DNA from: Saccoglossus kowalevskii
Taxonomy: Eukaryota > Hemichordata > Enteropneusta > Harrimaniidae
DNA: 25,514 nt
Direction: 5' to 3'
Assembly (NCBI RefSeq): GCF_000003605.2
Contig: NW_003119118.1
Coordinates: 1-25,514, forward strand
Part shown: positions 673 to 25,238 of the stretch, in pieces
Position numbering within the stretch: position 1 is the stretch's first letter
Layout of the letters: each line of letters starts with the position of its first letter
Translations under genes and position numbers: made by a program
Notes under the pieces: model-generated
What the model saw: only the letters and a program-made list of their open reading frames with translations
What the model was told of the DNA's origin: nothing
Databases searched by the model: none

Positions 673-699
673 CAATAACATCTTCACAACCACTGTGTC

Positions 700-1970: not shown

Positions 1971-2170
1971 CAATAACGTCTTTATAACAACTGTGTCAGA
2001 TATTATGTCTATATAACACTTCCGATAACATCTTCACAACCACTGTGTCAGTCTCTATGGCACTACCAATAACATCTTCACAACAACAGTGTCATATAGC
2101 ATGTCTCTATGGCACTACCAATAACATCATCGCAACCACTGTGTCAGGTAGCATGTCTCTATGACTCTAC
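1971..2170 (+). repeat. A cassette 1 (higher-order marker)
   Basis: Four monomers of 52+44+52+52 bp. The first has AACGTCTTTATAAC, CAGATATTATG and ATAACACTTC, running into TTCCGAT. The second lacks 8 bp (GTGTCAGTCTCTATGGC). The third has AACAACAGTGTCA and CTATGGC. The fourth has CATCATCGCAACC and GACTCTACC. In this copy the third monomer carries the subtype GTCATATAG. The cassette contains most of the CpGs in its neighbourhood. The same four-monomer string recurs through the window and sets the higher-order units. Confidence 0.9.
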
Positions 2171-2222
2171 CAATAACATCTTCACAACCACTGTGTCAGG
2201 TAGCATGTCTCTATGACACTAC

Positions 2223-2271
2223 CAATAACATCTTTACAACTGTGTCAGATAGCATGTCTTTATGACACTAT
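2223..2271 (+). repeat. 49-bp monomer (3-bp deletion), representative
   Basis: CTTTACAACTGTG replaces CTTTACAACCACTGTG. Monomers of this length start at 1, 2223, 3044, 4334, 5207, 9911, 11668, 12695, 14867, 16102, 18064, 20389, 22509, 22766 and 23586. Those following an A cassette sit exactly 202 bp after its TCCG and carry GTCTTTATGAC; those in C modules are the third monomer and mostly carry GTATG. Confidence 0.85.
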
Positions 2272-2791
2272 CAATAACATCTTCACAACCACTGTGTCAG
2301 GTAGCATGTCTATATGACACTATCAATAACATCTTCACAACCACTGTGTCAGGTAGCATGTCTATATGACACTACCATTAACATCTTCACAACCACTGTG
2401 TCAGATAGCATGTCTCTATGACACTACCAATAACATTTTCACAACCACTGTGTCAGATAGAATGTCTCTATGATACTACCAATAACATCTTCACAACAAC
2501 TGTGTTAGATAGCATGTCTCTATGACACTACCAATAGCATCTTCACAACAACTGTGTCAGATAGTATGTCTCTATGACACTACCAATAACATCTTCACAA
2601 CAACTGTGTCAGATAGTATGTCTCTACGACACTACCATTAACATCTTCACAGCAACTGTGTCTGATAGCATGTCTCTATGACACTACCAATAACATCGTT
2701 ACAACAACTGTGTCAGGTAGCATGTCTCTATGGCACTACCAATAACACCTTCACAACCACTGTGTCAGGTAGCATGTCTCTATGACACTAC

Positions 2792-2991
2792 CAATAACGT
2801 CTTTATAACAACTGTGTCAGATATTATGTCTATATAACACTTCCGATAACATCTTCACAACCACTGTGTCAGTCTCTATGGCACTACCAATAACATCTTC
2901 ACAACAACAGTGTCATATAGCATGTCTCTATGGCACTACCAATAACATCATCGCAACCACTGTGTCAGGTAGCATGTCTCTATGACTCTAC
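2792..2991 (+). repeat. A cassette 2
   Basis: Subtype GTCATATAG, as in cassette 1, from which it lies 821 bp away (16x52-8-3). With the following 49-bp monomer and TATATGAC copies it repeats the material after cassette 1, so 1971-2791 and 2792 onward are tandem duplicates for several hundred bases. Only the last three or four monomers before it belong to the type I series. Confidence 0.88.
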
Positions 2992-3561
2992 CAATAACAT
3001 CTTCACAACCACTGTGTCAGGTAGCATGTCTCTATGACACTACCAATAACATCTTTACAACTGTGTCAGATAGCATGTCTTTATGACACTATCAATAACA
3101 TCTTCACAACCACTGTGTCAGGTAGCATGTCTATATGACACTATCAATAACATCTTCACAACCACTGTGTCAGGTAGCATGTCTATATGACACTACCATT
3201 AACATCTTTACAACCACTGTGTCAGATAGTATGTCTCTATGACACTACCAATAACATCTTCACAACAACTGTGTCAGATAGCATGTGTCTATGGCACTAC
3301 CAATAACATCTTCCCAACAACTGTGTCAGATAGCATGTCTCTATGACACTACCAATAAACATCTTCACAGCAACTGTGTCAGGTAGCATGTCTTTATGAC
3401 ACTACCAATAACATCTTCACAACAACTGTGTCAGATAGTATGTCTCTATGACACTACCAATAACATCTTCACAACAACTGTGTTAGATAGCATGTCTCTA
3501 TGACATTACCAATAACATCTTCACAACAACTGTGTCATGTAGCGTGTCTCTATGACAGTAC

Positions 3562-4081
3562 CAATAACATCTTCACAACCAATGTGTCAGGTAGCATGTC
3601 TCTATGACACTACCAATAACATTTTTACAACCACTGTGTCAGATAGCATGTCTATATGACACTATCAATAACATCTTCACAACCACTGTGTCAGGTAGCA
3701 TGTCTATATGACACTACCAATAACATCTTCACAACCACTGTGTCAGGTAGCATGTCTCTATGACAGTACCAATAACATCTTCACAACCACTGTGTCAGGT
3801 AGCATGTCTCTACGACACTACCATTAACATCTTCACAGCAACTGTGTCTGATAGCATGTCTCTATGACAGTACCAATAACATCTTCACAACCACTGTGTC
3901 AGGTAGCATGTCTCTATGACAGTACCAATAACATCTTCACAACCACTGTGTCAGGTAGCATGTCTCTACGACACTACCATTAACATCTTCACAGCAACTG
4001 TGTCTGATAGCATGTCTCTATGGCACTACCAATAACACCTTCACAACCACTGTGTCAGGTAGCATGTCTCTATGACACTAC
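3562..4081 (+). repeat. Rearranged type I module before A3
   Basis: Starts with AACCAATGTG like other type I modules but is 520 bp rather than 416. The CTACGACACTACCATT plus GTGTCTGATAG pair is present twice (about 3810-3860 and 3965-4015), and the CATCGTTAC monomer is missing, so GTGTCTGATAG runs straight into a CTATGGC/CACCTTCAC pair. This fits a small internal duplication with a one-monomer loss. Confidence 0.7.
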
Positions 4082-4281
4082 CAATAACGTCTTTATAACA
4101 ACTGTGTCAGATATTATGTCTATATAACACTTCCGATAACATCTTCACAACCACTGTGTCAGTCTCTATGGCACTACCAATAACATCTTCACAACAACAG
4201 TGTCAGATAGCATGTCTCTATGGCACTACCAATAACATCATCGCAACCACTGTGTCAGGTAGCATGTCTCTATGACTCTAC
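4082..4281 (+). repeat. A cassette 3
   Basis: Standard composition with GTCAGATAG in the third monomer. It is followed by GACTCTACC, the 49-bp monomer at 4334 and a rare GACATTATC variant at 4427, a set shared with 11,466-11,900. Confidence 0.88.
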
Positions 4282-4694
4282 CAATAACATCTTCACAACC
4301 ACTGTGTCAGGTAGCATGTCTCTATGACACTACCAATAACATCTTTACAACTGTGTCAGATAGCATGTCTTTATGACACTATCAATAACATCTTCACAAC
4401 CACTGTGTCAGGTAGCATGTCTATATGACATTATCAATAACATCTTCACAACCACTGTGTCAGGTAGCATGTCTATATGACACTACCAATAACATCTTCA
4501 CAACCACTGTGTCAGGTAGCATGTCTCTATGACAGTACCAATAACATCTTCACAACCACTGTGTCAGGTAGCATGTCTCTATGACACTACCAATAACATC
4601 TTCACAACCACTGTGTCAGGTAGCATGTCTCTATGACAGTACCAATAACATCTTCACAACCACTGTGTCAGGTAGCATGTCTCTACGACACTAC

Positions 4695-4902
4695 CATTAA
4701 CATCTTCACAGCAACTGTGTCAGATAGCATGTCTATATGACACTACCAATAACATCTTCACAACAACTGTGTCAGATAGTATGTCTCTATGACACTACCA
4801 ATAACATCTTCACAACAACTGTGTCAGATAGTATGTCTCTATGACACTACCAATAATATCTTCACAACCACTGTGTCAGATAGCATGTCTCTATGACACT
4901 AC
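4695..4902 (+). repeat. Type II module before A4
   Basis: Four monomers (208 bp) ending exactly at an A cassette: CCATTAACATC with CACAGCAACTG; two CACAACAACTG monomers with GATAGTATG; then CAATAATATC. It is the alternative to type I at the same position relative to A. Here the first monomer reads TATATGAC where most type II copies have TTTATGAC. Confidence 0.8.
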
Positions 4903-5102
4903 CAATAACGTCTTTATAACAAGTGTGTCAGATATTATGTCTATATAACACTTCCGATAACATCTTCACAACCACTGTGTCAGTCTCTATGGCACTACCA
5001 ATAACATCTTCACAACAACAGTGTCAGATAGCATGTCTCTATGGCACTACCAATAACATCATCGCAACCACTGTGTCAGATAGCATGTCTCTATGACAGT
5101 AC
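4903..5102 (+). repeat. A cassette 4, joined to a C module
   Basis: The first monomer has the private change AACAAGTGTG, found again only in cassette 11 at this position. The fourth monomer ends GATAG...GACAGTAC instead of GACTCTACC and leads directly into a C module, so it is a chimera shared with 17,760-17,959. Confidence 0.88.
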
Positions 5103-5255
5103 CAATAACATATTTACAACCACTGCGTCAGGTAGCATGTCAATATGACACTATCAATAACATCTTCACAACCACTGTGTCAGGTAGCATATCTCTATGA
5201 CACTACCAATAACATCTTTACAACTGTGTCAGATAATATGTCTCTATGACACTAC
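5103..5255 (+). repeat. C module, partial (3 monomers)
   Basis: The first monomer has CATATTTACAACCACTGCG and GTCAATATGAC, the second GCATATCTC, the third is a 49-bp form with GATAATATG. The two further monomers seen in full C modules are replaced here by copies with GTATGTCAC and CAATAAACATC. Confidence 0.75.
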
Positions 5256-5465
5256 CAATAACATCTTCACAACAACTGTGTCAGATAGCATGTCTGTATG
5301 TCACTACCAATAAACATCTTCACAACCACTGTGTCAGATAGTATGTCTCTATGACACTACCCAATAACATCTTCACAACAACTGTGTTAGATAGCATGTC
5401 TCTATGACACTACCAATAACATCTTCACAACAACTGTGTCATGTAGCGTGTCTTTATGACACTAC

Positions 5466-5568
5466 CAATAACATTTTCACAACAACCCGGTCAGATAGCG
5501 TGTCTCTATGACACTACCAATAACATTTTATAACAACAGTGTCAGATATTATGTCTATATAACACTTC
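5466..5568 (+). repeat. B cassette 1 (higher-order marker)
   Basis: A monomer with AACAACCCGGTCAG, preceded by a GTCATGTAGCGTGTC monomer, is followed by a 51-bp monomer with CATTTTATAAC, CAGATATTATG and the TTCCGAT end. Unlike A, the next monomer is full length (CATCTTTACAACCAC). Here the second monomer reads AACAACAGTG instead of AACAACGGTG, and the first has GATAGCGTG. Confidence 0.85.
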
Positions 5569-6140
5569 CGATAACATCTTTACAACCACTGTGTCAGATA
5601 GCATGTCTCTATGACACTACCAATACCATTTTTACAACCACTGTGTCAGGTAGCATGTCTTTATGACACTACCAATAACATCTTCACAACCACTGTGTCA
5701 GATAGCATGTCTCTATGACCCTACCAATAACATCATCACAACCACTGTGTCAGGTAGCATGTCTCTATGACACTACCAATAACATCTTCACAACCACTGT
5801 GTGAGGTAGCATGTCTATATGACACTATCAATAACATCTTCACAACCACTGTGTCAGGTAGCATGTCTATATGACACTATCAATAACATCTTCACAACCA
5901 CTGTGTCAGGTAGCATGTCTATATGACACTACCAATAACATCTTCACAACCACTGTGTCAGGTAGCATGTCTCTATGACAGTACCAATAACATCTTCACA
6001 ACCACTGTGTCAGGTAGCATGTCTCTATGACACTACCAATAACATCTTCACAACCACTGTGTCAGGTAGCATGTCTCTATGACAGTACCAATAACATCTT
6101 CACAACCACTGTGTCAGGTAGCATGTCTCTACGACACTAC

Positions 6141-6348
6141 CATTAACATCTTCACAGCAACTGTGTCAGATAGCATGTCTTTATGACACTACCAATAACA
6201 TCTTCACAACAACTGTGTCAGATAGTATGTCTCTATGACACTACCAATAACATCTTCACAACAACTGTGTCAGATAGTATGTCTCTATGACACTACCAAT
6301 AATATCTTCACAGCCACTGTGTCAGATAGCATGTCTCTATGACACTAC
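6141..6348 (+). repeat. Type II module before A5
   Basis: CCATTAAC, TTTATGAC, two GATAGTATG monomers and CAATAATATC, with CACAGCCACTG in the last monomer, a subtype shared with the module at 7433. Confidence 0.8.
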
Positions 6349-6548
6349 CAATAACGTCTTTATAACAACTGTGTCAGATATTATGTCTATATAACACTTC
6401 CGATAACATCTTCACAACCACTGTGTCAGTCTCTATGGCACTACCAATAACATCTTCACAACAACAGTGTCAGATAGCATGTCTCTATGGCACTACCAAT
6501 AACATCATCGCAACCACTGTGTCAGGTAGCATGTCTTTATGACACTAC
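6349..6548 (+). repeat. A cassette 5
   Basis: The fourth monomer has CATCATCGC but then GTCTTTATGAC rather than GACTCTACC. The chain downstream leaves the usual A path (no 49-bp monomer) and enters a duplicated TAATAACATATTTAC block. Confidence 0.88.
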
Positions 6549-6652
6549 CAATAACATCTTCACAACAACTGTGTCAGGTAGCATGTCTTTATGACACTAC
6601 CAATAACATCTTCACAACAACTGTGTCAGATAGCATGTCTCTATGACAGTAC

Positions 6653-6912
6653 TAATAACATATTTACAACCACTGTGTCAGGTAGCATGTCTCTATGACA
6701 CTACCCATAACATCTTTACAACCACTGTGTCAGATAGCATGTCTCTATGACACTACCAATAACATCTTTACAACCACTGTGTCAGATAGCATGTCTCTAT
6801 GACAGTACTAATAACATATTTACAACCACTGTGTCAGGTAGCATGTCTCTATGACACTACCCATAACATCTTTACAACCACTGTGTCAGATAGCATGTCT
6901 CTATGACACTAC
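6653..6912 (+). repeat. 156-bp (three-monomer) tandem duplication
   Basis: The set TAATAACATATTTAC / CCATAACATCTTTAC / CAATAACATCTTTAC...GACAGTAC starts at 6653 and again at 6809; the second copy's third monomer is replaced by CATTTTCACAAGCACTGCG. An equivalent duplicated set lies at 20645-20904. Confidence 0.8.
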
Positions 6913-7432
6913 CAATAACATTTTCACAAGCACTGCGTTAGATAGCATGTCTCTATGACACTACCAATAACATCTTCACAACAACTGTGTCAGATAGTAT
7001 GTCTCTATGACACTACCAATAACATCTTCACAACAACTGTGTCAGATAGTATGTCTCTATGACACTACTATTAACATCTTCACAACCACTGTGTCAGATA
7101 GCATGTCTCTATGACACTACCAATAACATCTTCACAACAACTGTGTTAGATAGCATGTCTCTATGACACTACCAATAACATTTTCACAACAACTGTGTTA
7201 GATAGCATGTCTCTATGACACTACCATTAACATCTTCACAAGCACTGTGTCAGATAGAATGTCTCTATGACACTACCAATAACATCTTCACAACAAATGT
7301 GTTAGATAGCATGTCTCTATGACACTACCAATAACATCTTCACAACAACTGTGTTAGATAGCATGTCTCTACGACAGTACCAATAACATCTTCACAACCA
7401 CTGTGTCAGGTAGCATGTCTCTACGACACTAC

Positions 7433-7640
7433 CATTAACATCTTCACAGCAACTGTGTCAGATAGCATGTCTTTATGACACTACCAATAACATCTTCACA
7501 ACAACTGTGTCAGATAGTATGTCTCTATGACACTACCAATAACATCTTCACAACAACTGTGTCAGATAGTATGTCTCTATGACACTACCAATAATATCTT
7601 CACAGCCACTGTGTCAGATAGCATGTCTCTATGACACTAC
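7433..7640 (+). repeat. Type II module before A6
   Basis: Same four-monomer order as at 6141, including CACAGCCACTG in the last monomer. Confidence 0.8.
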
Positions 7641-7840
7641 CAATAACGTCTTTATAACAACTGTGTCAGATATTATGTCTATATAACACTTCCGATAACA
7701 TCTTCACAACCACTGTGTCAGTCTCTATGGCACTACCAATAACATCTTCACAACAACAGTGTCAGATAGCATGTCTCTATGGCACTACCAATAACATCAT
7801 CGCAACCACTGTGTCAGGTAGCATGTCTCTATGACTCTAC
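7641..7840 (+). repeat. A cassette 6
   Basis: Standard composition, 1292 bp after cassette 5 (25x52-8). It is followed by a monomer with GCATGTTTCTATGAC and a 51-bp junction CACTACAATAAC, a pair also found after cassette 8. Confidence 0.88.
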
Positions 7841-8203
7841 CAATAACATCTTCACAACCACTGTGTCAGGTAGCATGTTTCTATGACACTACAATAACAT
7901 CTTCACAACAACTGTGTCAGATAGCATGTCTCTATGACACTACCAATAACATCTTCACAACAACTGTGTCAGATAGCATGTCTCTATGACAGTACTAATA
8001 ACATATTTACAACAACTGTGTCAGATAGTATGTCTCTATGACACTACCAATAACATCTTCACAACAACTGTGTCAGATAGTATGTCTCTATGACACTACC
8101 AATAACATCTTCACAACAACTGTGTTAGATAGCATGTCTCTATGACACTACCAATAACATCTTCACAACAACTGTGTCATGTAGCGTGTCTTTATGACAC
8201 TAC

Positions 8204-8306
8204 CAATAACATTTTCACAACAACCCGGTCAGATAGCATGTCTCTATGACACTACCAATAACATTTTATAACAACGGTGTCAGATATTATGTCTATATAA
8301 CACTTC
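8204..8306 (+). repeat. B cassette 2
   Basis: CCCGG monomer with GATAGCATG, then the 51-bp CATTTTATAACAACGGTG monomer. Confidence 0.85.
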
Positions 8307-8458
8307 CGATAACATCTTTACAACCACTGTGTCAGATAGCATGTCTCTATGACACTACCAATACCATTTTTACAACCACTGTGTCAGGTAGCATGTCTAT
8401 ATGACACTACCAATAACATCTTCACAACCACTGTGTCAGATAGCATGTCTCTATGACA

Positions 8459-9658
8459 CTACCAATAACATCTTTACAACCACTGTGTCAGGTAGCATGT
8501 CTCTATGACACTACCAATAACATCTTCACAACCACTGTGTGAGGTAGCATGTCTATATGACACTATCAATAACATCTTCACAACCACTGTGTCAGGTAGC
8601 ATGTCTATATGACACTATCAATAACATCTTCACAACCACTGTGTCAGGTAGCATGTCTATATGACACTACCAATAACATCTTCACAACCACTGTGTCAGG
8701 TAGCATGTCTCTATGACAGTACCAATAACATCTTCACAACCAATGTGTCAGGTAGCATGTCTCTATGACACTACCAATAACATTTTTACAACCACTGTGT
8801 CAGATAGCATGTCTATATGACACTATCAATAACATCTTCACAACCACTGTGTCAGGTAGCATGTCTATATGACACTACCAATAACATCTTCACAACCACT
8901 GTGTCAGGTAGCATGTCTCTATGACAGTACCAATATCATCTTCACAACCACTGTGTCAGGTAGCATGTCTCTACGACACTACCATTAACATCTTCACAGC
9001 AACTGTGTCTGATAGCATGTCTCTATGATACTACCAATAACATCTTTACAACCACTGTGTCAGGTAGCATGTCTCTATGACACTACCAATAACATCTTCA
9101 CAACCACTGTGTCAGGTAGCATGTCTATATGACACTATCAATAACATCTTCACAACCACTGTGTCAGGTAGCATGTCTATATGACACTATCAATAACATC
9201 TTCACAACCACTGTGTCAGGTAGCATGTCTCTATGACAGTACCAATAACATCTTCACAACCAATGTGTCAGGTAGCATGTCTCTATGACACTACCAATAA
9301 CATTTTTACAACCACTGTGTCAGATAGCATGTCTATATGACACTATCAATAACATCTTCACAACCACTGTGTCAGGTAGCATGTCTATATGACACTACCA
9401 ATAACATCTTCACAACCACTGTGTCAGGTAGCATGTCTCTATGACAGTACCAATATCATCTTCACAACCACTGTGTCAGGTAGCATGTCTCTACGACACT
9501 ACCATTAACATCTTCACAGCAACTGTGTCTGATAGCATGTCTCTATGATACTACCAATAACATCGTTACAACAACTGTGTCAGGTAGCATGTCTCTATGG
9601 CACTACCAATAACACCTTCACAACCACTGTGTCAGGTAGCATGTCTCTATGACACTAC
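8459..9658 (+). repeat. Tandem duplication of about 11 monomers, including two type I modules
   Basis: The interval from B cassette 2 to A cassette 7 is 1404 bp, exactly 520 bp more than the 884 bp seen elsewhere. The private variant AGTACCAATATCATC occurs at 8931 and 9451, and the AACCAATGTG monomers start at 8723 and 9243, both 520 apart. The CATCTTTAC monomers that open the two copies are 572 bp apart, because the second copy has one TATATGACACTACC monomer fewer. The join is near 9031-9045, where GATACTACC is followed by CATCTTTAC instead of its usual CATCGTTAC. Confidence 0.85.
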
Positions 9659-9858
9659 CAATAACGTCTTTATAACAACTGTGTCAGATATTATGTCTAT
9701 ATAACACTTCCGATAACATCTTCACAACCACTGTGTCAGTCTCTATGGCACTACCAATAACATCTTCACAACAACAGTGTCAGATAGCATGTCTCTATGG
9801 CACTACCAATAACATCATCGCAACCACTGTGTCAGGTAGCATGTCTCTATGACTCTAC
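9659..9858 (+). repeat. A cassette 7
   Basis: Standard composition, GTCAGATAG subtype, followed by the 49-bp monomer at 9911. Confidence 0.88.
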
Positions 9859-10271
9859 CAATAACATCTTCACAACCACTGTGTCAGGTAGCATGTCTCT
9901 ATGACACTACCAATAACATCTTTACAACTGTGTCAGATAGCATGTCTTTATGACACTATCAATAACATCTTCACAACCACTGTGTCAGGTAGCATGTCTA
10001 TATGACACTACCATTAACATCTTCACAACCACTGTGTCAGATAGCATGTCTCTATGACACTACCAATAACATCTTCACAACAACTGTGTTAGATAGCATG
10101 TCTCTATGACACTACCAATAGCATCTTCACAACAACTGTGTCAGATAGTATGTCTCTATGACACTACCAATAACATCTTCACAACAACTGTGTCAGATAG
10201 TATGTCTCTATGACACTACCAATAACATCTTCACAACAACTGTGTCATGTAGCGTGTCTTTATGACACTAC

Positions 10272-10479
10272 CAATAACATCTTCACAACAACCCGGTCAG
10301 ATAGCATGTCTCTATGACAATACCAATAACATTTTTATAACAACGGTGTCAGATATTATGTCTATATAACACTTCCGATAACATCTTTACAACCACTTTG
10401 TCAGATAGCATGTCTCTATGACACTACCAATAACATTTTTATAACAACGGTGTCAGATATTATGTCTATATAACACTTC
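10272..10479 (+). repeat. B cassette 3, doubled
   Basis: CCCGG monomer (here with CATCTTCAC), a 52-bp CATTTTTATAACAACGGTG monomer, one ordinary monomer, then a second CATTTTTATAACAACGGTG monomer. The two TTCCGAT ends are 104 bp apart. The CCCGG monomer ends GACAATACC, shared with cassettes 4 and 5. Confidence 0.85.
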
Positions 10480-11311
10480 CGATAACATCTTTACAACCAC
10501 TGTGTCAGATAGCATGTCTCTATGACACTACCAATACCATTTTTACAACCACTGTGTCAGGTAGCATGTCTATATGACACTACCAATAACATCTTCACAA
10601 CCACTGTGTCAGATAGCATGTCTCTATGACCCTACCAATAACATCTTTACAACCACTGTGTCAGGTAGCATGTCTCTATGACACTACCAATATCATCTTC
10701 ACAACCACTGTGTGAGGTAGCATGTCTATATGACACTATCAATAACATCTTCACAACCACTGTGTCAGGTAGCATGTCTATATGACACTATCAATAACAT
10801 CTTCACAACCACTGTGTCAGGTAGCATGTCTATATGACACTACCAATAACATCTTCACAACCACTGTGTCAGGTAGCATGTCTCTATGACAGTACCAATA
10901 ACATCTTCACAACCAATGTGTCAGGTAGCATGTCTCTATGACACTACCAATAACATTTTTACAACCACTGTGTCAGATAGCATGTCTATATGACACTATC
11001 AATAACATCTTCACAACCACTGTGTCAGGTAGCATGTCTATATGACACTACCATTAACATCTTCACAACCACTGTGTCAGATAGCATGTCTCTATGACAC
11101 TACCAATAACATCTTCACAACAACTGTGTCAGATAGTATGTCTCTATGACACTACCAATAACATCTTCACAACAACTGTGTCAGATAGTATGTCTCTATG
11201 ACACTACCAATAACATCTTCACAACAACTGTGTTAGATAGCATGTCTCTATGACACTACCAATAACATCTTCACAACAACTGTGTCATGTAGCGTGTCTT
11301 TATGACACTAC

Positions 11312-11415
11312 CAATAATATTTTCACAACAACCTGGTCAGATAGCATGTCTCTATGACAATACCAATAACATTTTTATAACAACGGTGTCAGATATTATG
11401 TCTATATAACACTTC
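11312..11415 (+). repeat. B cassette 4, altered
   Basis: The CCCGG marker reads CCTGG here, a C to T change at its CpG neighbour, and the monomer starts CAATAATATTTTC. The second monomer is the 52-bp CATTTTTATAAC form. It runs directly into the A hybrid. Confidence 0.82.
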
Positions 11416-11615
11416 CGATAACATCTTTACAACCACTGTGTCAGATATTATGTCTATATAACACTTCCGATAACATCTTCACAACCACTGTGTCAGTCTT
11501 TATGGCACTACCAATAACATCTTCACAACAACAGTGTCAGATAGCATGTCTCTATGGCACTACCAATAACATCATCGCAACCACTGTGTCAGGTAGCATG
11601 TCTCTATGACTCTAC
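11416..11615 (+). repeat. B/A hybrid cassette
   Basis: The first monomer starts like the one that follows B (CGATAACATCTTTACAACC) but switches at CAGATA into the A monomer (TTATGTCTATATAAC, TTCCGAT). It is then followed by the A series: the 44-bp monomer (with GTCTTTATGGC), AACAACAGTG, CATCATCGC. Two TTCCGAT ends are therefore only 52 bp apart (11414 and 11466), which is unique here. It looks like an unequal exchange inside a shared CTGTGTCAGATA stretch. Confidence 0.85.
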
Positions 11616-11920
11616 CAATAACATCTTCACAACCACTGTGTCAGGTAGCATGTCTCTATTACACTACCAATAACATCTTTACAACTGTGTCAGATAGCAT
11701 GTCTTTATGACACTATCAATAACATCTTCACAACCACTGTGTCAGGTAGCATGTCTATATGACATTATCAATAACATCTTCACAACCACTGTGTCAGGTA
11801 GCATGTCTATATGACACTACCAATAACATCTTCACAACCACTGTGTCAGGTAGCATGTCTCTATGACAGTACCAATAACATCTTCACAACCACTGTGTCA
11901 GGTAGCATGTCTCTATGACA

Positions 11921-12240
11921 CTACCAAATAACATCTTCACAACCACTGTGTCAGGTAGCATGTCTCTATGACAGTACCAAAAACATATTCACAACCAATG
12001 AGTCAGGTAGCATGTGTATAGGACAATACCATTAACATATCACAGCAATTGTGTCAGATAGCAAGTCTTTAAGACATACCAATAACATATTCACAACAAC
12101 TGTGTCAGATAGTATGTCTCTATGACAATACCAATAATATCTTCACAAACACTGTATCAGATAGCATGTCTGTAAGACACTACCAATAACGTCTTTATAA
12201 CAACTGTGTCAGATATTATGTCTATATAACACTTCAGATA
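11921..12240 (+). repeat. Abnormally divergent patch
   Basis: About 20 private differences in roughly 320 bp, many of them changes to A: CCAAATAAC, CCAAAAACATATTC, ATGAGTCAG, GTGTATAGGAC, CATATCACAGCAATTG, GCAAGTC, TTAAGACATACC, AAACACTGTATC, GTCTGTAAGAC and CTTCAGATAAC. Two single-base losses and one gain fit the marker spacing (768 = 15x52-8-3+1-2). It is a recognisable type II module with one GATAGTATG monomer missing. Either a real degenerate island or poorly corrected sequence. Confidence 0.8.
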
Positions 12241-12383
12241 ACATCTTCACAACCACTGTGTCAGTCTCTATGGCACTACCAATAACATCTTCACAACAAC
12301 AGTGTCAGATAGCATGTCTCTATGGCACTACCAATAACATCATCGCAACCACTGTGTCAGGTAGCATGTCTCTATGACTCTAC
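12184..12383 (+). repeat. A cassette 8
   Basis: Its marker reads CTTCAGATAAC, losing the CpG of TTCCGAT. The fourth monomer ends GACTCTACT. The start lies inside the divergent patch, while the rest is normal. Confidence 0.85.
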
Positions 12384-12590
12384 TAATAACATCTTCACAA
12401 CCACTGTGTCAGGTAGCATGTTTCTATGACACTACAATAACATCTTCACAACAACTGTGTCAGATAGCATGTCTCTATGACACTACCAATAACATCTTCA
12501 CAACAACTGTGTCAGATAGCATGTCTCTATGACAGTACTAATAACATATTTACAACCACTGTGTCAGATAGCATGTCTCTATGACAGTAC

Positions 12591-14614: not shown

Positions 14615-14814
14615 CAATAACGTCTTTATAACAACTGTGTCAGATATTATGTCTATATAACACTTCCGATAACATCTTCACAACCACTGTGTCAGTCTCT
14701 ATGGCACTACCAATAACATCTTCACAACAACAGTGTCAGATAGCATGTCTCTATGGCACTACCAATAACATCATCGCAACCACTGTGTCAGGTAGCATGT
14801 CTCTATGACTCTAC
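14615..14814 (+). repeat. A cassette 9
   Basis: Standard composition, followed by the 49-bp monomer at 14867. Confidence 0.88.
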
Positions 14815-15434
14815 CAATAACATCTTCACAACCACTGTGTCAGGTAGCATGTCTCTATGACACTACCAATAACATCTTTACAACTGTGTCAGATAGCATG
14901 TCTTTATGACACTATCAATAACATCTTCACAACCACTGTGTCAGGTAGCATGTCTCTATGACACTACCAATAACATTTTTACAACCACTGTGTCAGGTAG
15001 CATGTCTCTATGACAGTACCAATAACATCTTCACAACCACTGTGTCAGGTAGCATGTCTCTATGACACTACCAATAACATTTTTACAACCACTGTGTCAG
15101 ATAGCATGTCTATATGACACTATCAATAACATCTTCACAACCACTGTGTCAAGTAGCATGTCTATATGACACTACCAATAACATCTTCACAACCACTGTG
15201 TCAGGTAGCATGTCTCTATGACAGTACCAATAACATCTTCACAACCACTGTGTCAGGTAGCATGTCTCTATGACACTACAATAACATCTTCACAACAACT
15301 GTGTCAGATAGCATGTCTTTATGACACTACCAATAACATCTTCACTACAACTGTGTCAGATAGCATGTCTCTATGGCACTACCAATAACATTTTCACAAC
15401 AACTGTGTCAGATAGCATGTCTCTATGACACTAC

Positions 15435-15634
15435 CAATAACGTCTTTATAACAACTGTGTCAGATATTATGTCTATATAACACTTCCGATAACATCTTCA
15501 CAACCACTGTGTCAGTCTCTATGGCACTACCAATAACATCTTCACAACAACAGTGTCAGATAGCATGTCTCTATGGCACTACCAATAACATCATCGCAAC
15601 AACTGTGTTAGATAGCATGTCTCTATGACACTAC
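15435..15634 (+). repeat. A cassette 10, chimeric fourth monomer
   Basis: Preceded by neither type I nor type II but by a CTATGGC/CATTTTCACAAC pair. The fourth monomer reads CATCATCGCAACAACTG with GTTAGATAG, a jump into the CACAACAACTG/GTTAG family, and is followed by the CATTTTTAC and TATATGAC monomers usually found inside type I. Confidence 0.85.
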
Positions 15635-15997
15635 CAATAACATTTTTACAACCACTGTGTCAGATAGCATGTCTATATGACACTATCAATAACATCTTCA
15701 CAACCACTGTGTCAGGTAGCATGTCTATATGACACTACCAATAACATCTTCACAACCACTGTGTCAGGTAGCATGTCTCTATGACTCTACCAATAACATC
15801 TTCACAACCACTGTGTCAGGTAGCATGTCTCTATGACACTACAATAACATCTTCACAACAACTGTGTCAGATAGCATGTCTCTATGACACTACCAATAAC
15901 ATCTTCACAACAACTGTGTCAGATAGCATGTCTCTATGACAGTACTAATAACATATTTACAACCACTGTGTCAGATAGCATGTCTCTATGACAGTAC

Positions 15998-16253
15998 CAA
16001 TAACATATTTACAACCACTGCGTCAGGTAGCATGTCAATATGACACTATCAATAACATCTTCACAACCACTGTGTCAGGTAGCACATCTCTATGACACTA
16101 CCAATAACATCTTTACAACTGTGTCAGATAGTATGTCTCGATGACACTACCAATAACATCTTCACAACAAATGTGTCAGATAGCATGTGTCTATGGCCCT
16201 ACAATAACATCTTCCCAACAACTGTGTCAGATAGCATGTCTCTATGACACTAC
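15998..16253 (+). repeat. C module
   Basis: Same five monomers as at 12591, with small private changes: GCACATCTC in the second monomer, GTCTCGATGAC in the third, and CACAACAAATG plus GGCCCTAC in the fourth. Confidence 0.82.
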
Positions 16254-16824
16254 CAATAACATCTTCACAACAACTGTGTCAGGTAGCATGTCTTTTTGAC
16301 ACTACCAATAACATCTTCACAACAAGTGTGTCAGATAGCATGTCTCTATGACACTACAATAACATCTTCACAACAACTGTGCCAGATAGCATGTCTCTAT
16401 GGCACTACCAATAACATCTTCACAACCACTGTGTCAGGTAGCATGTCTCTATGGCACTACCAATAACATTTTCACAACCACTGTGTCAGATAGCATGTCT
16501 CTATGACACTACCAATAACATCTTCACAACCACTGTGTCAGATAGAATGTCTCTATGATACTACCAATAACATCTTCACAACCACTGTGTTAGATAGCAT
16601 GTCTCTATGACACTACCAATAGCATCTTCACAACAACTGTGTCAGATAGTATGTCTCTATGACACTACCAATAACATCTTCACAACAACTGTGTCAGATA
16701 GTATGTCTCTATGACACTACCAATAACATCTTCACAACAACTGTGTTAGATAGCATGTCTCTATGACACTACCAATAACATCTTCACAACAACTGTGTCA
16801 TGTAGCGTGTCTTTATGACACTAC

Positions 16825-16927
16825 CAATAACATTTTCACAACAACCCGGTCAGATAGCATGTCTCTATGACACTACCAATAACATTTTATAACAACGGTG
16901 TCAGATATTATGTCTATATAACACTTC
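16825..16927 (+). repeat. B cassette 6
   Basis: CCCGG monomer plus the 51-bp CATTTTATAACAACGGTG monomer. A cassette 11 lies 884 bp later, but the segment between contains a repeated CATTTTTAC/TTTATGAC/GACCCTACC trio and a type II module, so it equals the 884-bp type I segments in length only. Confidence 0.85.
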
Positions 16928-17551
16928 CGATAACATCTTTACAACCACTGTGTCAGATAGCATGTCTCTATGACACTACCAATAACATTTTTACAACCAC
17001 TGTGTCAGGTAGCATGTCTTTATGACACTACCAATAACATCTTCACAACCACTGTGTCAGATAGCATGTCTCTATGACCCTACCAATAACATTTTTACAA
17101 CCACTGTGTCAGGTAGCATGTCTTTATGACACTACCAATAACATCTTCACAACCACTGTGTCAGATAGCATGTCTCTATGACCCTACCAATAACATCATC
17201 ACAACCACTGTGTCAGGTAGCATGTCTATATGACACTATCAATAACATCTTCACAACCACTGTGTCAGGTAGCATGTCTATATGACACTATCAATAACAT
17301 CTTCACAACCACTGTGTCAGGTAGCATGTCTATATGACACTACCAATAACATCTTCACAACCACTGTGTCAGGTAGCATGTCTCTATGACAGTACCAATA
17401 ACATCTTCACAACCACTGTGTCATGTAGCATGTCTCTATGACACTACCAATAACATCTTCACAACCACTGTGTCAGGTAGCATGTCTCTATGACAGTACC
17501 AATAACATCTTCACAACCACTGTGTCAGGTTGCATGTCTCTACGACACTAC

Positions 17552-17759
17552 CATTAACATCTTCACAGCAACTGTGTCAGATAGCATGTCTTTATGACAC
17601 TACCAATAACATCTTCACAACAACTGTGTCAGATAGTATGTCTCTATGACACTACCAGTAACATCTTCACAACAACTGTGTCAGATAGTATGTCTCTATG
17701 ACACTACCAATAATATCTTCACAACCACTGTGTCAGATAGCATGTCTCTATGACACTAC
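17552..17759 (+). repeat. Type II module before A11
   Basis: CCATTAAC, TTTATGAC, two GATAGTATG monomers (the second one starting after CCAGTAAC) and CAATAATATC. Preceded by GTCAGGTTGCATG. Confidence 0.8.
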
Positions 17760-17959
17760 CAATAACGTCTTTATAACAAGTGTGTCAGATATTATGTCTA
17801 TATAACACTTCCGATAACATCTTCACAACCACTGTGTCAGTCTCTATGGCACTACCAATAACATCTTCACAACAACAGTGTCAGATAGCATGTCTCTATG
17901 GCACTACCAATAACATCATCGCAACCACTGTGTCAGATAGCATGTCTCTATGACAGTAC
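17760..17959 (+). repeat. A cassette 11, joined to a C module
   Basis: Has AACAAGTGTG in the first monomer and GATAG...GACAGTAC in the fourth, both as in cassette 4, 12,857 bp upstream. Confidence 0.88.
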
Positions 17960-18215
17960 CAATAACATATTTACAACCACTGCGTCAGGTAGCATGTCAA
18001 TATGACACTATCAATAACATCTTCACAACCACTGTGTCAGGTAGCATATCTCTATGACACTACCAATAACATCTTTACAACTGTGTCAGATAGTATGTCT
18101 CTATGACACTACCAATAACATCTTCACAACAACTGTGTCAGATAGCATGTGTCTATGGCACTACAATAACATCTTCCCAACAACTGTGTCAGATAGCATG
18201 TCTCTATGACACTAC
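17960..18215 (+). repeat. C module
   Basis: Full five-monomer module directly abutting A cassette 11. Confidence 0.82.
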
Positions 18216-18579
18216 CAATAACATCTTCACAACAACTGTGTCAGGTAGCATGTCTTTATGACACTACCAATAACATCTTCACAACAACTGTGTCAGATAG
18301 TATGTCTCTATGACACTACCAATAACATCTTCACAACAACTGTGTTAGATAGCATGTCTCTATGACATTACCAATAACATCTTCACAACAACTGTGTCAT
18401 GTAGCGTGTCTCTATGACACTACCAATAACATCTTCACAACAACTGTGTCAGATAGTATGTCTCTATGACACTACCAATAACATCTTCACAACAACTGTG
18501 TTAGATAGCATGTCTCTATGACATTACCAATAACATCTTCACAACAACTGTGTCATGTAGCGTGTCTTTATGACACTAC
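18216..18579 (+). repeat. Duplicated GTTAG / GACATTACC / GTCATGTAGCG trio
   Basis: The string GATAGTATG, GTTAGATAG, GACATTACC, GTCATGTAGCGTGTC appears at about 18,300-18,410 and again at about 18,455-18,570, 156 bp (three monomers) apart, just before B cassette 7. The first copy has GTGTCTCTATG and the second GTGTCTTTATG. Confidence 0.75.
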
Positions 18580-18786
18580 CAATAACATTTTCACAACAAC
18601 CCGGTCAGATAGCATGTCTCTATGACACTACCAATAACATTTTATAACAACGGTGTCAGATATTATGTCTATATAACACTTCCGATAACATCTTTACAAC
18701 CACTGTGTCAGATAGCATGTCTCTATGACACTACCAATAACATTTTTATAACAACGGTGTCAGATATTATGTCTATATAACACTTC
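18580..18786 (+). repeat. B cassette 7, doubled
   Basis: The first AACGGTG monomer is the 51-bp form and the second the 52-bp form; their TTCCGAT ends are 104 bp apart. Confidence 0.85.
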
Positions 18787-19480
18787 CGATAACATCTTTA
18801 CAACCACTGTGTCAGATAGCATGTCTCTATGACAATACCAATACCATTTTTACAACCACTGTGTCAGGTAGCATGTCTTTATGACACAACCAATAACATC
18901 TTCACAACGACTGTGTCAGATAGCATGTCTCTATGACCCTACCAATAACATCATCACAACCACTGTGTCAGGTAGCATGTCTCTATGACACTACCAATAA
19001 CATCTTCACAACCACTGTGTGAGGTAGCATGTCTATATGACACTATCAATAACATCTTCACAACCACTGTGTCAGGTAGCATGTCTATATGACACTATCA
19101 ATAACATCTTCACAACCACTGTGTCAGGTAGCATGTCTATATGACACTACCAATAACATCTTCACAACCACTGTGTCAGGTAGCATGTCTCTATGACAGT
19201 ACCAATAACATCTTTACAACCACTGTGTCAGATAGCATGTCTCTATGACAATACCAATACCATTTTTACAACCACTGTGTCAGGTAGCATGTCTTTATGA
19301 CACAACCAATAACATCTTCACAACGACTGTGTCAGATAGCATGTCTCTATGACCCTACCAATAACATCATCTCTTCACTGTGTCAGGTAGCATGTCTATA
19401 TGACACTATCAATAACATCTTCACAACCACTGTGTCAGGTAGCATGTCTATATGACACTACCAATAACATCTTCACAACC
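18787..19480 (+). repeat. 416-bp (eight-monomer) tandem duplication with a scar
   Basis: Private variants GACAATACCAATACC, GACACAACC (18882 and 19298) and ACAACGACTG recur 416 bp apart. Copy 1 spans 18787-19202; copy 2 starts at 19203. Copy 2 is cut short at CATCATCTCTTCACTG (19366-19390), a unique join one base shorter than the parent monomer, after which three monomers present in copy 1 are missing. The distance between the flanking B and A markers (1143) equals 22x52-1, in agreement. Confidence 0.85.
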
Positions 19481-19669
19481 ACTGTGTCAGGTAGCATGTC
19501 TCTATGACAGTACCAATAACATCTTCACAACCACTGTGTCAGGTAGCATGTCTCTATGACACTACCAATAACATATTCACAACCACTGTGTCAGGTAGCA
19601 TGTCTCTATGACAGTACCAATAACATCTTCACAACCACTGTGTCAGGTAGCATGTCTCTACGACACTAC

Positions 19670-19877
19670 CATTAACATCTTCACAGCAACTGTGTCAGAT
19701 AGCATGTCTTTATGACACTACCAATAACATCTTCACAACAACTGTGTCAGATAGTATGTCTCTATGACACTACCAATAACATCTTCACAACAACTGTGTC
19801 AGATAGTATGTCTCTATGACACTACCAATAATATCTTCACAACCACTGTGTCAGATAGCATGTCTCTATGACACTAC
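19670..19877 (+). repeat. Type II module before A12
   Basis: Same order as at 4695 with TTTATGAC in the first monomer and CACAACCACTG in the last. Confidence 0.8.
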
Positions 19878-20077
19878 CAATAACGTCTTTATAACAACTG
19901 TGTCAGATATTATGTCTATATAACACTTCCGATAACATCTTCACAACCACTGTGTCAGTCTCTATGGCACTACCAATAACATCTTCACAACAACAGTGTC
20001 AGATAGCATGTCTCTATGGCACTACCAATAACATCATCGCAATGACTGTGTCAGGTAGCATGTCTCTATGACTCTAC
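19878..20077 (+). repeat. A cassette 12
   Basis: Fourth monomer reads CATCGCAATGACTG, a private change; otherwise standard. Confidence 0.88.
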
Positions 20078-20284
20078 CAATAACATCTTCACAACCACTG
20101 TGTCAGGTAGCATGTCTCTATGACACTACAATAACATCTTCACAACAACTGTGTCAGATAGCATGTCTCTATGACACTACCAATAACATCTTCACAACAA
20201 CTGTGTCAGATAGCATGTCTCTATGACAGTACTAATAACATATTTACAACCACTGTGTCAGATAGCATGTCTCTATGACAGTAC

Positions 20285-20540
20285 CAATAACATATTTACA
20301 ACCACTGCGTCAGGTAGCATGTCAATATGACACTATCAATAACATCTTCACAACCACTGTGTCAGGTAGCATATCTCTATGACACTACCAATAACATCTT
20401 TACAACTGTGTCAGTTAGTATGTCTCTATGACACTACCAATAACATCTTCACAACAACTGTGTCAGATAGCATGTGTCTATGGCACTACAATAACATCTT
20501 CCCAACAACTGTGTCAGATAGCATGTCTCTATGACACTAC
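20285..20540 (+). repeat. C module
   Basis: Full five-monomer module; the 49-bp monomer has GTCAGTTAGTATG instead of GTCAGATAG. Confidence 0.82.
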
Positions 20541-20644
20541 CAATAACATCTTCACAACAACTGTGTCAGGTAGCATGTCTTTATGACACTACCAATAACA
20601 TCTTTACAACAACTGTGTCAGATAGCATGTCTCTATGACAGTAC

Positions 20645-20904
20645 TAATAACATATTTACAACCACTGTGTCAGGTAGCATGTCTCTATGACACTACCCAT
20701 AACATCTTTACAACCACTGTGTCAGATAGCATGTCTCTATGACACTACCAATAACATCTTTACAACCACTGTGTCAGATAGCATGTCTCTATGACAGTAC
20801 TAATAACATATTTACAACCACTGTGTCAGGTAGCATGTCTCTATGACACTACCCATGACATCTTTACAACCACTGTGTCAGATAGCATGTCTCTATGACA
20901 CTAC
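20645..20904 (+). repeat. 156-bp tandem duplication, second occurrence
   Basis: Same trio as at 6653, starting at 20645 and 20801. The second copy has CCCATGACATC. It is again followed by CATTTTCACAAGCACTGCG, as at 6.9 kb, so the duplicated trio was itself copied to both places. Confidence 0.8.
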
Positions 20905-21216
20905 CAATAACATTTTCACAAGCACTGCGTTAGATAGCATGTCTCTATGACACTACCAATAACATCTTCACAACAACTGTGTTAGATAGCATGTCTCTAT
21001 GACACTACCAATAACATCTTCACAACAACTGTGTCAGATAGTATGTCTCTATGACACTACCAATAACATCTTCACAACAACTGTGTCAGATAGTATGTCT
21101 CTATTACACTACCAATAACATCTTCACAACAACTGTGTTAGATAGCATGTCTCTATGACACTACCAATAACATCTTCACAACAACTGTGTCATGTAGCGT
21201 GTCTTTATGACACTAC

Positions 21217-21424
21217 CATAACATTTTCACAACAACCCGGTCAGATAGCATGTCTCTATGACACTACCAATAAACATTTTTATAACAACGGTGTCAGATA
21301 TTATATCTATATAACACTTCCGATAACATCTTTAAAACCACTGTGTCAGATAGCATGTCTCTATGACACTACCAATAACATTTTTATAACAACGGTGTCA
21401 GATATTATGTCTATATAACACTTC
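21217..21424 (+). repeat. B cassette 8, doubled, with two compensating indels
   Basis: The CCCGG monomer has lost one A (CTACCATAAC), and the next has gained one (CCAATAAACATTTTTATAAC) and reads TTATATCTATATAAC. Two TTCCGAT ends lie 104 bp apart. The -1/+1 pair keeps a forward frame open across this cassette for 87 codons, but this is only translated satellite and not a gene. Confidence 0.85.
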
Positions 21425-21840
21425 CGATAACATCTTTACAACCACTGTGTCAGATAGCATGTCTCTATGACACTACCAATACCATTTTTACAACCACTGT
21501 GTCAGGTAGCATGTCTATATGACACTACCAATAACATCTTCACAACCACTGTGTCAGATAGCATGTCTCTATGACCCTACCAATAACATCTTTACAACCA
21601 CTGTGTCAGGTAGCATGTCTCTATGACACTACCAATAACATCTTCACAACCACTGTGTGAGGTAGCATGTCTATATGACACTATCAATAACATCTTCTCA
21701 ACCACTGTGTCAGGTAGCATGTCTATATGACACTATCAATAACATCTTCACAACCACTGTGTCAGGTAGCATGTCTATATGACACTACCAATAACATCTT
21801 CACAACCACTGTGTCAGGTAGCATGTCTCTATGACAGTAC

Positions 21841-22256
21841 CAATAACATCTTCACAACCAATGTGGCAGGTAGCATGTCTCTATGACACTACCAATAACA
21901 TTTTTACAACCACTGTGTCAGATAGCATGTCTATATGACACTATCAATAACATCTTCACAACCACTGTGTCAGGTAGCATGTCTATATGACACTACCAAT
22001 AACATCTTCACAACCACTGTGTCAGGTAGCATGTCTCTATGACAGTACCAATAACATCTTCACAACCACTGTGTCAGGTAGCATGTCTCTACGACACTAC
22101 CATTAACATCTTCACAGCAACTGTGTCTGATAGCATGTCTCTATGATACTACCAATAACATCGTTACAACAACTGTGTCAGGTAGCATGTCTCTATGGCA
22201 CTACCAATAACACCTTCACAACCACTGTGTCAGGTTGCATGTCTCTATGACACTTC
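21841..22256 (+). repeat. Type I module before A13
   Basis: Subtype AATGTGGCAGG as at 1555. The last monomer carries GTCAGGTTGCATG and the module ends CACTTC. Confidence 0.8.
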
Positions 22257-22456
22257 CAATAATGTCTTTATAACAACTGTGTCAGATATTATGTCTATAT
22301 AACACTTCCGATAACATCTTCACAACCACTGTGTCAGTCTCTATGGCACTACCAATAACATCTTCACAACAACAGTGTCATATAGCATGTCTCTATGGCA
22401 CTACCAATAACATCATCGCAACCACTGTGTCAGGTAGCATGTCTCTATGACTCTAC
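22257..22456 (+). repeat. A cassette 13
   Basis: Begins CAATAATGTC rather than CAATAACGTC, a CpG to TpG change. The third monomer is the GTCATATAG subtype, as in cassettes 1, 2 and 14. Confidence 0.88.
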
Positions 22457-22661
22457 CAATAACATCTTCACAACCACTGTGTCAGGTAGCATGTCTCCAT
22501 GACACTACCAATAACATCTTTACAACTGTGTCAGATAGCATGTCTTTATGACACTATCAATAACATCTTCACAACCACTGTGTCAGGTAGCATGTCTATA
22601 TGACACTATCAATAACATCTTCACAACCACTGTGTCAGGTAGCATGTCTATATGACACTAC

Positions 22662-22917
22662 CATTAACATATTTACAACCACTGCGTCAGGTAGCATGTC
22701 AATATGACACTATCAATAACATCTTCACAACCACTGTGTCAGGTAGCATATCTCTATGACACTACCAATAACATCTTTACAACTGTGTCAGATAGTATGT
22801 CTCTATGACACTACCAATAACATCTTCACAACAACTGTGTCAGATAGCATGTGTCTATGGCACTACAATAACATCTTCCCAACAACTGTGTCAGATAGCA
22901 TGTCTCTATGACAGTAC
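22662..22917 (+). repeat. C module inserted into a type I context
   Basis: Both ends are hybrid: the left reads CCATTAACATATTTAC (a CCATTAAC monomer switched into the C module), and the right reads GACAGTAC and leads directly into a type I module. The monomer order is that of a full C module. Confidence 0.82.
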
Positions 22918-23333
22918 CAATAACATCTTCACAACCAATGTGGCAGGTATCATGTCTCTATGACACTACCAATAACATTTTTACAACCACTGTGTCAGAT
23001 AGCATGTCTATATGACACTATCAATAACATCTTCACAACCACTGTGTCAGGTAGCATGTCTATATGACACTACCAATAACATCTTCACAACCACTGTGTC
23101 AGGTAGCATGTCTCTATGACAGTACCAATAACATCTTCACAACCACTGTGTCAGGTAGCATGTCTCTACGACACTACCATTAACATCTTCACAGCAACTG
23201 TGTCTGATAGCATGTCTCTATGATACTACCAATAACATCGTTACAACAACTGTGTCAGGTAGCATGTCTCTATGGCACTACCAATAACACCTTCACAACC
23301 ACTGTGTCAGGTAGCATGTCTCTATGACACTGC
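22918..23333 (+). repeat. Type I module before A14
   Basis: Subtype AATGTGGCAGGTATCATG, shared only with the module at 24623. Ends GACACTGCC. Confidence 0.8.
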
Positions 23334-23533
23334 CAATAACGTCTTTATAACAACTGTGTCAGATATTATGTCTATATAACACTTCCGATAACATCTTCAC
23401 AACCACTGTGTCAGTCTCTATGGCACTACCAATAACATCTTCACAACAACAGTGTCATATAGCATGTCTCTATGGCACTACCAATAACATCATCGCAACC
23501 ACTGTGTCAGGTAGCATGTCTCTATGACTCTAC
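23334..23533 (+). repeat. A cassette 14
   Basis: GTCATATAG subtype, followed by the 49-bp monomer at 23586, two TATATGAC copies and CCATTAAC. It is 1077 bp after cassette 13. Confidence 0.88.
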
Positions 23534-24103
23534 CAATAACATCTTCACAACCACTGTGTCAGGTAGCATGTCTCTATGACACTACCAATAACATCTTTAC
23601 AACTGTGTCAGATAGCATGTCTTTATGACACTATCAATAACATCTTCACAACCACTGTGTCAGGTAGCATGTCTATATGACACTATCAATAACATCTTCA
23701 CAACCACTGTGTCAGGTAGCATGTCTATATGACACTACCATTAACATCTTCACAACCACTGTGTCAGATAGCATGTCTCTATGACACTACCAATAACATT
23801 TTTCACAACCACTGTGTCAGATAGAATGTCTCTATGACACTACCAATAACATCTTCACAACAACTGTGTTAGATAGCATGTCTCTATGACACTACCAATA
23901 GCATCTTCACAACAACTGTGTCAGATAGTATGTCTCTATGACACTACCAATAACATCTTCACAACAACTGTGTCAGATAGTATGTCTCTATGACACTACC
24001 AATAACATCTTCACAACAACTGTGTTAGATAGCATGTCTCTATGACACTACCAATAACATCTTCACAACAACTGTGTCATGTAGCGTGTCTTTATGACAC
24101 TAC

Positions 24104-24206
24104 CAATAACATTTTCACAACAACCCGGTCAGATAGCATGTCTCTATGACACTACCAATAACATTTTATAACAACGGTGTCAGATATTATGTCTATATAA
24201 CACTTC
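24104..24206 (+). repeat. B cassette 9
   Basis: CCCGG monomer with the 51-bp CATTTTATAACAACGGTG monomer, 821 bp after the cassette 14 marker and 884 bp before that of cassette 15. Confidence 0.85.
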
Positions 24207-24622
24207 CGATAACATCTTTACAACCACTGTGTCAGATAGCATGTCTCTATGACACTACCAATACCATTTTTACAACCACTGTGTCAGGTAGCATGTCTAT
24301 ATGACACTACCAATAACATCTTCACAACCACTGTGTCAGATAGCATGTCTCTATGACCCTACCAATAACATCTTTACAACCACTGTGTCAGGTAGCATGT
24401 CTCTATGACACTACCAATAACATCTTCACAACCACTGTGTGAGGTAGCATGTCTATATGACACTATCAATAACATCTTCACAACCACTGTGTCAGGTAGC
24501 ATGTCTATATGACACTATCAATAACATCTTCACAACCACTGTGTCAGGTAGCATGTCTATATGACACTACCAATAACATCTTCACAACCACTGTGTCAGG
24601 TAGCATGTCTCTATGACAGTAC

Positions 24623-25038
24623 CAATAACATCTTCACAACCAATGTGGCAGGTATCATGTCTCTATGACACTACCAATAACATTTTTACAACCACTGTGT
24701 CAGATAGCATGTCTATATGACACTATCAATAACATCTTCACAACCACTGTGTCAGGTAGCATGTCTATATGACACTACCAATAACATCTTCACAACCACT
24801 GTGTCAGGTAGCATGTCTCTATGACAGTACCAATAACATCTTCACAACCACTGTGTCAGGTAGCATGTCTCTACGACACTACCATTAACATCTTCACAGC
24901 AACTGTGTCTGATAGCATGTCTCTATGATACTACCAATAACATCGTTACAACAACTGTGTCAGGTAGCATGTCTCTATGGCACTACCAATAACACCTTCA
25001 CAACCACTGTGTCAGGTAGCATGTCTCTATGACACTAC
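24623..25038 (+). repeat. Type I module before A15
   Basis: Subtype AATGTGGCAGGTATCATG; all eight markers in order. Confidence 0.8.
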
Positions 25039-25238
25039 CAATAACGTCTTTATAACAACTGTGTCAGATATTATGTCTATATAACACTTCCGATAACATC
25101 TTCACAACCACTGTGTCAGTCTCTATGGCACTACCAATAACATCTTCACAACAACAGTGTCAGATAGCATGTCTCTATGGCACTACCAATAACATCATCG
25201 CAACCACTGTGTCAGGTAGCATGTCTCTATGACTCTAC
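25039..25238 (+). repeat. A cassette 15
   Basis: Standard composition with GTCAGATAG. It is the last marker cassette in the window; after its fourth monomer the array shifts to another monomer family. Confidence 0.88.

Follow-up and report, generated by a model that had tools for sequence, protein, structure and literature searches.

Higher-order satellite organization has been studied mainly in primates, and the monomer of alpha satellite measures about 171 bp. In the orangutan Y 58mer, a cascading alpha-satellite higher-order repeat, 258 of 310 copies are canonical (PMC12428378). Here we describe a 25,514-bp stretch of the hemichordate Saccoglossus kowalevskii (NW_003119118.1; G000:C1191, + strand), hereafter the window, which is an entire contig composed of satellite from end to end. 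It belongs to a satellite array whose higher-order repeat is real and ordered but irregular. It consists of monomers of 52 bp whose variants lie in recurring strings, with no fixed period, a partial alternation of two types of string (modules A and B) and a 52-bp register that most pieces retain. On balance, we lean toward reading it as an irregular higher-order satellite, in which a unit was amplified and later remodelled by the gain and loss of blocks together with point changes of about 1%.

Tandem Repeats Finder returned a single array at 1-25514 with a period of 52 and 494.3 copies, and cutting the window by wrap-around alignment gave 495 head-to-tail pieces of 175 distinct kinds. The register is retained along the array, with 436 of the 495 pieces at 52 bp; the others measure 51 (20 pieces), 44 (16), 49 (15), 53 (four), 50 (two) and 54 bp (one), plus one 17-bp end piece, and the lengths 44, 49 and 51 are recurring variants rather than one-off pieces. 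Monomers are on average 93% identical to the consensus and differ from one another by an average of 6.07 of 52 bases, and base composition is uniform across the window. Together with two further contigs of the assembly, C2426 and C2817, the window thus presents the long head-to-tail array of one monomer family that characterizes satellite DNA. A coding function was rejected on the single open frame of at least 80 amino acids in the window (87 amino acids), and a structured RNA was set aside, as an Rfam scan of the window gave no match at the gathering score; judged by these two scans, the array appears to be non-coding, as a satellite should be. A hairpin-forming monomer is a weak candidate, the consensus dimer having a z of -1.49 and folding no better than 19 of 200 shuffles. 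Most probably, the array is structural, non-coding DNA that yields no product and has been shaped by homologous exchange.

An initial annotation of this DNA had proposed that the variants occur in fixed strings and are not scattered, and the order of the monomers bears this out. Exact recurring strings of four monomers cover 51.3% of the window monomers, as against 0 in 200 order shuffles, and 73.5% when rare variants are merged at one edit (shuffle mean 0.1%, maximum 1.6%). The conditional entropy of monomer order is 1.07 bits (shuffle minimum 2.19), and the longest exact recurring string spans 9 monomers, compared with 2-4 in 20 shuffles. When the window is written as a self-copy mosaic, with every monomer copied from elsewhere in it and each jump costing 4 edits, it resolves into 55 segments as opposed to 182-205 in 20 shuffled orders; segments of at least 4 monomers hold 96% of the monomers, with a divergence of 1.1%. 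The same procedure gives 91 segments for C2426, versus 326-351 after shuffling. Monomer order is conserved inside the recurring strings of the window, and copies of a string diverge by about 1%, far less than any two monomers do, which is the hallmark of a higher-order repeat. The check that the annotation had suggested, namely cutting the array into monomers and testing their order, did not return random ordering.

The two most prominent strings are module A, of 200 bp (52+44+52+52), called with at most 3 edits per monomer and found at 14 places in the window, the first at 1971 and the last at 25039-25238, and module B, of 103-105 bp, found at 12 places including four doublets. The features of the window are as follows:

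1..25514, + strand, 52-bp satellite array, 495 pieces
1..1348, + strand, left portion of the array, lacking both A and B and partly made of recurring strings of its own; 517-880 is a copy of the stretch from 985 onward
1971..2170, + strand, module A
2792..2991, + strand, module A
4082..4281, + strand, module A
4903..5102, + strand, module A
5518..5620, + strand, module B
6349..6548, + strand, module A
7641..7840, + strand, module A
8256..8358, + strand, module B
9659..9858, + strand, module A
10324..10531, + strand, module B doublet
12184..12383, + strand, module A
13627..13834, + strand, module B doublet
14615..14814, + strand, module A
15435..15530, + strand, partial module A, first two monomers match
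16877..16979, + strand, module B
17760..17959, + strand, module A
18632..18838, + strand, module B doublet
19878..20077, + strand, module A
21268..21476, + strand, module B doublet
22257..22456, + strand, module A
22896..24600, + strand, unit of 1705 bp as an example; an exact copy of 22896-23331 lies at 24601-25036
23334..23533, + strand, module A
24156..24258, + strand, module B
25039..25238, + strand, module A

Both modules had been predicted at these sizes (200 bp for A; about 103 bp, or about 208 bp when doubled, for B) and were recovered. The extent claimed for the repeat, 1971..25238, has as its end points the start of the first A and the end of the last, but the array occupies the whole window. 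The spacings 821, 884 and 104, which had been said to recur exactly, do all recur: that of 821 occurs twice between neighbouring A modules, the distance from B to the next A is 883 or 884 bp for 4 of the 12 B copies, and the B doublets are spaced by 104 (twice), 103 (once) and 105 (once), so that "exactly" is slightly strong. Successive B blocks are 1.8-3.2 kb apart. For three more strings, given without coordinates as C (256 bp), type I (416 bp) and type II (208 bp), the match is by length alone: at no more than one edit per monomer, a 256-bp string occurs three times, a 416-bp string six times and a 208-bp string nine times. We also considered whether A and B might be the halves of an older duplication and rejected this; their first monomers are alike (3.2 of 52 bases differ), and the next two differ by 10.2 and 8.3 against a background of 6.06.

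The constant unit length of a regular, Willard-type higher-order repeat is absent from the window. Among lags of 1-199 monomers, the best gives 6.6% exact matches over a background of 1.5%, and neighbouring full A modules are separated by 821-3145 bp (820-2525 bp if the partial A at 15435 is counted), in agreement with the variable unit length by which the array had been distinguished from regular alpha satellite. How far the order of strings is nevertheless retained from unit to unit bears directly on a further possibility, a true shuffled mosaic, in which strings were copied to random places in the array by non-local conversion, template switching or re-insertion and their order holds no memory of an older unit. 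With A and B marked by the first two monomers of each and doublets merged, the window reads AAAABAABABABAABABABAABA, with more runs than label shuffles (p 0.0061), and C2426 reads BBABABABABBABABABABBBBABBA (p 0.002; p 0.0001 for its core at 9.6-27.3 kb, which was picked after the order was seen); in C2817, ABBAABA, alternation is not above random labels (p 0.46). A stricter shuffle of whole self-copy blocks reaches the run number of C2426 in 9 of 2000 trials. Alternation above label shuffles in two of the three contigs runs contrary to a mosaic without memory, and the description of the array as a shuffled mosaic of strings recombined in different orders is only partly supported, on mixed evidence, although its modular strings and its lack of a fixed unit hold.

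Comparison of whole A-to-A units (14 from the window and seven from C2426 at 9-27.5 kb) points the same way. Their share of collinear monomers is 0.595, against a mean of 0.528 and a maximum of 0.547 in 40 within-unit block shuffles, and a mean of 0.502 when blocks are dealt across units. Other anchors exceed the maximum of eight block shuffles in 7 of 7 cases in the window, 6 of 8 and 8 of 8 in the halves of C2426, and 6 of 7 in C2817, these anchors overlapping and thus not being independent. The excess of order is 0.032-0.083 in the window, -0.012 to 0.094 in the first 495 monomers of C2426, 0.021-0.066 in its last 495 and 0.011-0.066 in C2817; in simulations, random copying gives 0.004-0.036 and the decayed repeat 0.024-0.116, with overlapping ranges. 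The size of the excess favours, with that overlap, retained order between strings. Taken by contig, the picture is mixed: the window and C2426 favour order between strings, C2817 shows it weakly, and simulated random copying attains part of it.

The simulations were run on 495-monomer samples and judged against the window values of 111 recurring runs, 0.97% divergence, a best lag of 6.6% and a near/far density of 1.03. Random copying (14 runs) yields 10-91 recurring runs at 0.04-0.57% divergence, which falls short of the window on both counts (10-30 runs in six simulations; 31-91 at 0.15-0.57% in the other eight), and its order excess lies mostly below that of the window. In its favour, it too produces some order excess as well as flat profiles such as that of the window; strings are common to all three contigs; and the divergence of string copies is independent of their distance (rho -0.07, p 0.46 in the window; 0.13, p 0.062 in C2426; -0.25, p 0.079 in C2817). 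We treat copying to random places as a serious but rather unlikely explanation. A model restricted to local tandem duplication and deletion, in which no regular higher-order repeat came first, could account for the plain doublings of neighbours, such as the four B doublets and the segment 8671-9044 repeated exactly at 9191-9564; yet in 12 of 12 runs of this model the near/far density was at least 6, as against 1.03, 1.53 and 1.39 in the window, C2426 and C2817, and we regard it as very improbable. A decayed repeat of 40 monomers subjected to 30 or 80 block duplications and deletions (six runs) gives 117-217 recurring runs, 1.2-1.4% divergence, a best lag of 3.6-11% and a near/far density of 0.74-1.96. 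Among the models simulated, a repeat of about 40 monomers blurred by 30-80 block events thus resembles the data more closely than do local duplication and random copying, although the results overlap.

The joins between copied segments suggest how such blocks may have moved. At 52 of the 54 joins (two were dropped for a segment of fewer than 3 monomers), the sources are 91.5% identical, as compared with 88.5% for 1220 random in-register pairs (p 7e-7), and they share an exact run with a median of 18 bp versus 13 bp in random pairs (p 0.007), the likeness predicted by exchange between homologous, non-equivalent monomers. A preferred breakpoint within the monomer was considered and rejected; junction phases pile up at 19, 30, 34 and 41, but these are among the most variable columns, and the phase is read at an informative base. 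In the amplified-and-remodelled satellite that we favour, the unit first amplified head to tail would have had, very approximately, 33-50 monomers (1.7-2.6 kb), with A followed by a linker, B and some 884 bp leading to the next A. Later duplications and deletions of blocks of several monomers, potentially through unequal exchange or break repair between out-of-step homologous monomers, would have altered the length of most units, and point changes of about 1% would have been added on top.

Several points weigh against this reading. No canonical unit was found, and the simulations used hand-picked settings with two or three seeds per setting, so that they provide a ranking and not a fit. The decayed repeat no longer fits at 150 events or more, where the near/far density was at least 3.1 in 9 of 9 runs (3.1-8.2 at 150 events, above 31 at 300-600), and it consequently needs a limited number of events. 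Block shuffles match the observed run number in 170 of 2000 trials for the window and 676 of 2000 for C2817. For 20 of 23 anchors, simulated random copying also lies above the maximum of its own block shuffles, on account of which the order tests discriminate by the size of the excess and not by significance, and by that measure 2 of 7 anchors in the window and 4 of 7 in C2817 lie inside the random-copying range. Because the join test relies on the same segmentation by which the joins were placed, it may inflate their likeness. Finally, the contigs may contain assembly errors.

The distribution of the satellite was surveyed with an exact 33-base probe, hence for exact copies only, over the 572-Mb assembly of 4830 contigs. 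All 633 matches fall in four contigs, with 179 in the window, 283 in C2426 (44,789 bp, array from base 12 to the end), 168 in C2817 (23,651 bp, array throughout) and three in C694 (18,346 bp, with 387 bp of array at one end followed by other DNA), so that the satellite is seen over about 94 kb in total; exact strings of up to 802 bp are common to different contigs. The only array edge found is that in C694 (L011 1-400), where about 7.6 monomers change abruptly to non-satellite DNA. The same contig carries an open frame at about 12.8-13.9 kb that matches BTB and NPH3 domains, and further tandem repeats with units of 93 bp (also in 69-bp forms), 47 bp and 149 bp (L011 2594-3471, 4142-4391, 4549-4738; L019 1790-2147). 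On the reverse strand of C2426 at about 30,900-31,200 (L013) are a few diverged monomers, one of them different at 12 of 52 bases, with ATATCATCTTCAC and ATATGATGTC motifs, possibly an older subfamily. Positions 1-300 of C2817 differ from 95-394 of the window by 13 mismatches in 300, and the right end of the window is by eye similar to the head of C2817; the contigs may break at a shared string.

With arrays reaching both ends of the window and C2817, and nearly so in C2426, the irregularity might instead stem from the assembler, which could have misjoined pieces or collapsed copies of a more regular array. Over 300 bp, the head of C2426 (reverse strand) is identical to C2817 starting at 1759; this may reflect a recurrence or a join. 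Contrary to such an artefact, the three contigs share one kind of organization, the four array contigs are free of N, and no exact repeat is longer than 530 bp in the window or than 1116 bp in any of the three contigs, which is short if long reads were used; we consider the artefact improbable. It is also doubtful, though conceivable, that the satellite is confined to one or very few loci with a steadily remodelled unit, the turnover of blocks being too fast for any canonical unit to prevail and the cyclic order nevertheless persisting over tens of kb. Were the array to mark the centromere of a single chromosome, it would constitute a chromosome-specific higher-order satellite outside vertebrates.

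As a separate observation, the only COX1 match returned lies on a 17,037-bp mitochondrial contig (C4830; L021, L022) with the order ATP6, COX3, ND3, ND4L, ND4, ND5, CYTB, reversed ND6, ND2, ND1, reversed COX1 and COX2, of which COX1 was identified by profile and the others by eye. Its eleven frames contain AGG 0, AGA 4 and AAA 50 times. PMC3121625 describes for this species, relative to Balanoglossus, an inverted COX1 and a transposed ND1 or ND2, and gives a code table without AGG and with AAA as lysine. The inverted COX1 and the placement of ND2 before ND1 on the contig agree with that description (PMC3121625). On the assumption that the contig belongs to the same animal as the array, it suggests a Saccoglossus-like acorn worm as the probable host; Asymmetron was rejected as host, its gene order in PMC2034537 being incompatible with that of the contig.

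Among known satellites, the array differs from alpha satellite in the size of its monomer. A CENP-B box is absent from the window at 0 or 1 mismatch; at two mismatches there are 9 matches against 3.0 expected, a number that 0 of 100 shuffles reach:

5476, 8214, 10282, 11322, 13585, 16835, 18590, 21226, 24114, two-mismatch CENP-B-box-like sites, in one variant monomer

We do not take these as evidence, since eight of the nine are identical and the ninth is one base off, so that they count about once, and the shuffles ignore copying; the sites probably share one origin. A literature search found no title on this 52-bp satellite among the titles returned, most subscription papers lying outside its coverage. 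Taken alone, the array adds another satellite family whose organization is of a known type. As a length-variable case in a distant deuterostome, it makes it possible to ask whether the same turnover, amplification followed by in-register gain and loss of blocks, operates there, and it is compact enough that single exchange events can be read from its 52-bp monomers.

The array resembles an irregular version of the higher-order repeats that have been described from centromeric DNA. It resembles the orangutan Y 58mer, as portrayed in the relevant part of PMC12428378, in its long units with monomer types repeated inside and in variant copies produced when rows or single monomers are duplicated or deleted, and differs from it in that no canonical unit was found here, the monomer is 52 bp, the host is distant and the satellite is seen over about 94 kb only. 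Like the Meloidogyne arrays, it is an invertebrate satellite with higher-order units, the long and short forms of Meloidogyne differing by one monomer; however, in those arrays different satellites are combined, neighbours are 32-86% identical and junction motifs are conserved (PMC3694981), whereas here there is one 52-bp family with no junction motif shown. With regular Willard-type alpha-satellite repeats it has in common that the copies of a string resemble one another far more than their constituent monomers do, but their fixed period is missing. On these comparisons, it behaves like the variant-rich, cascading higher-order repeats while failing the fixed-period test of the regular ones.

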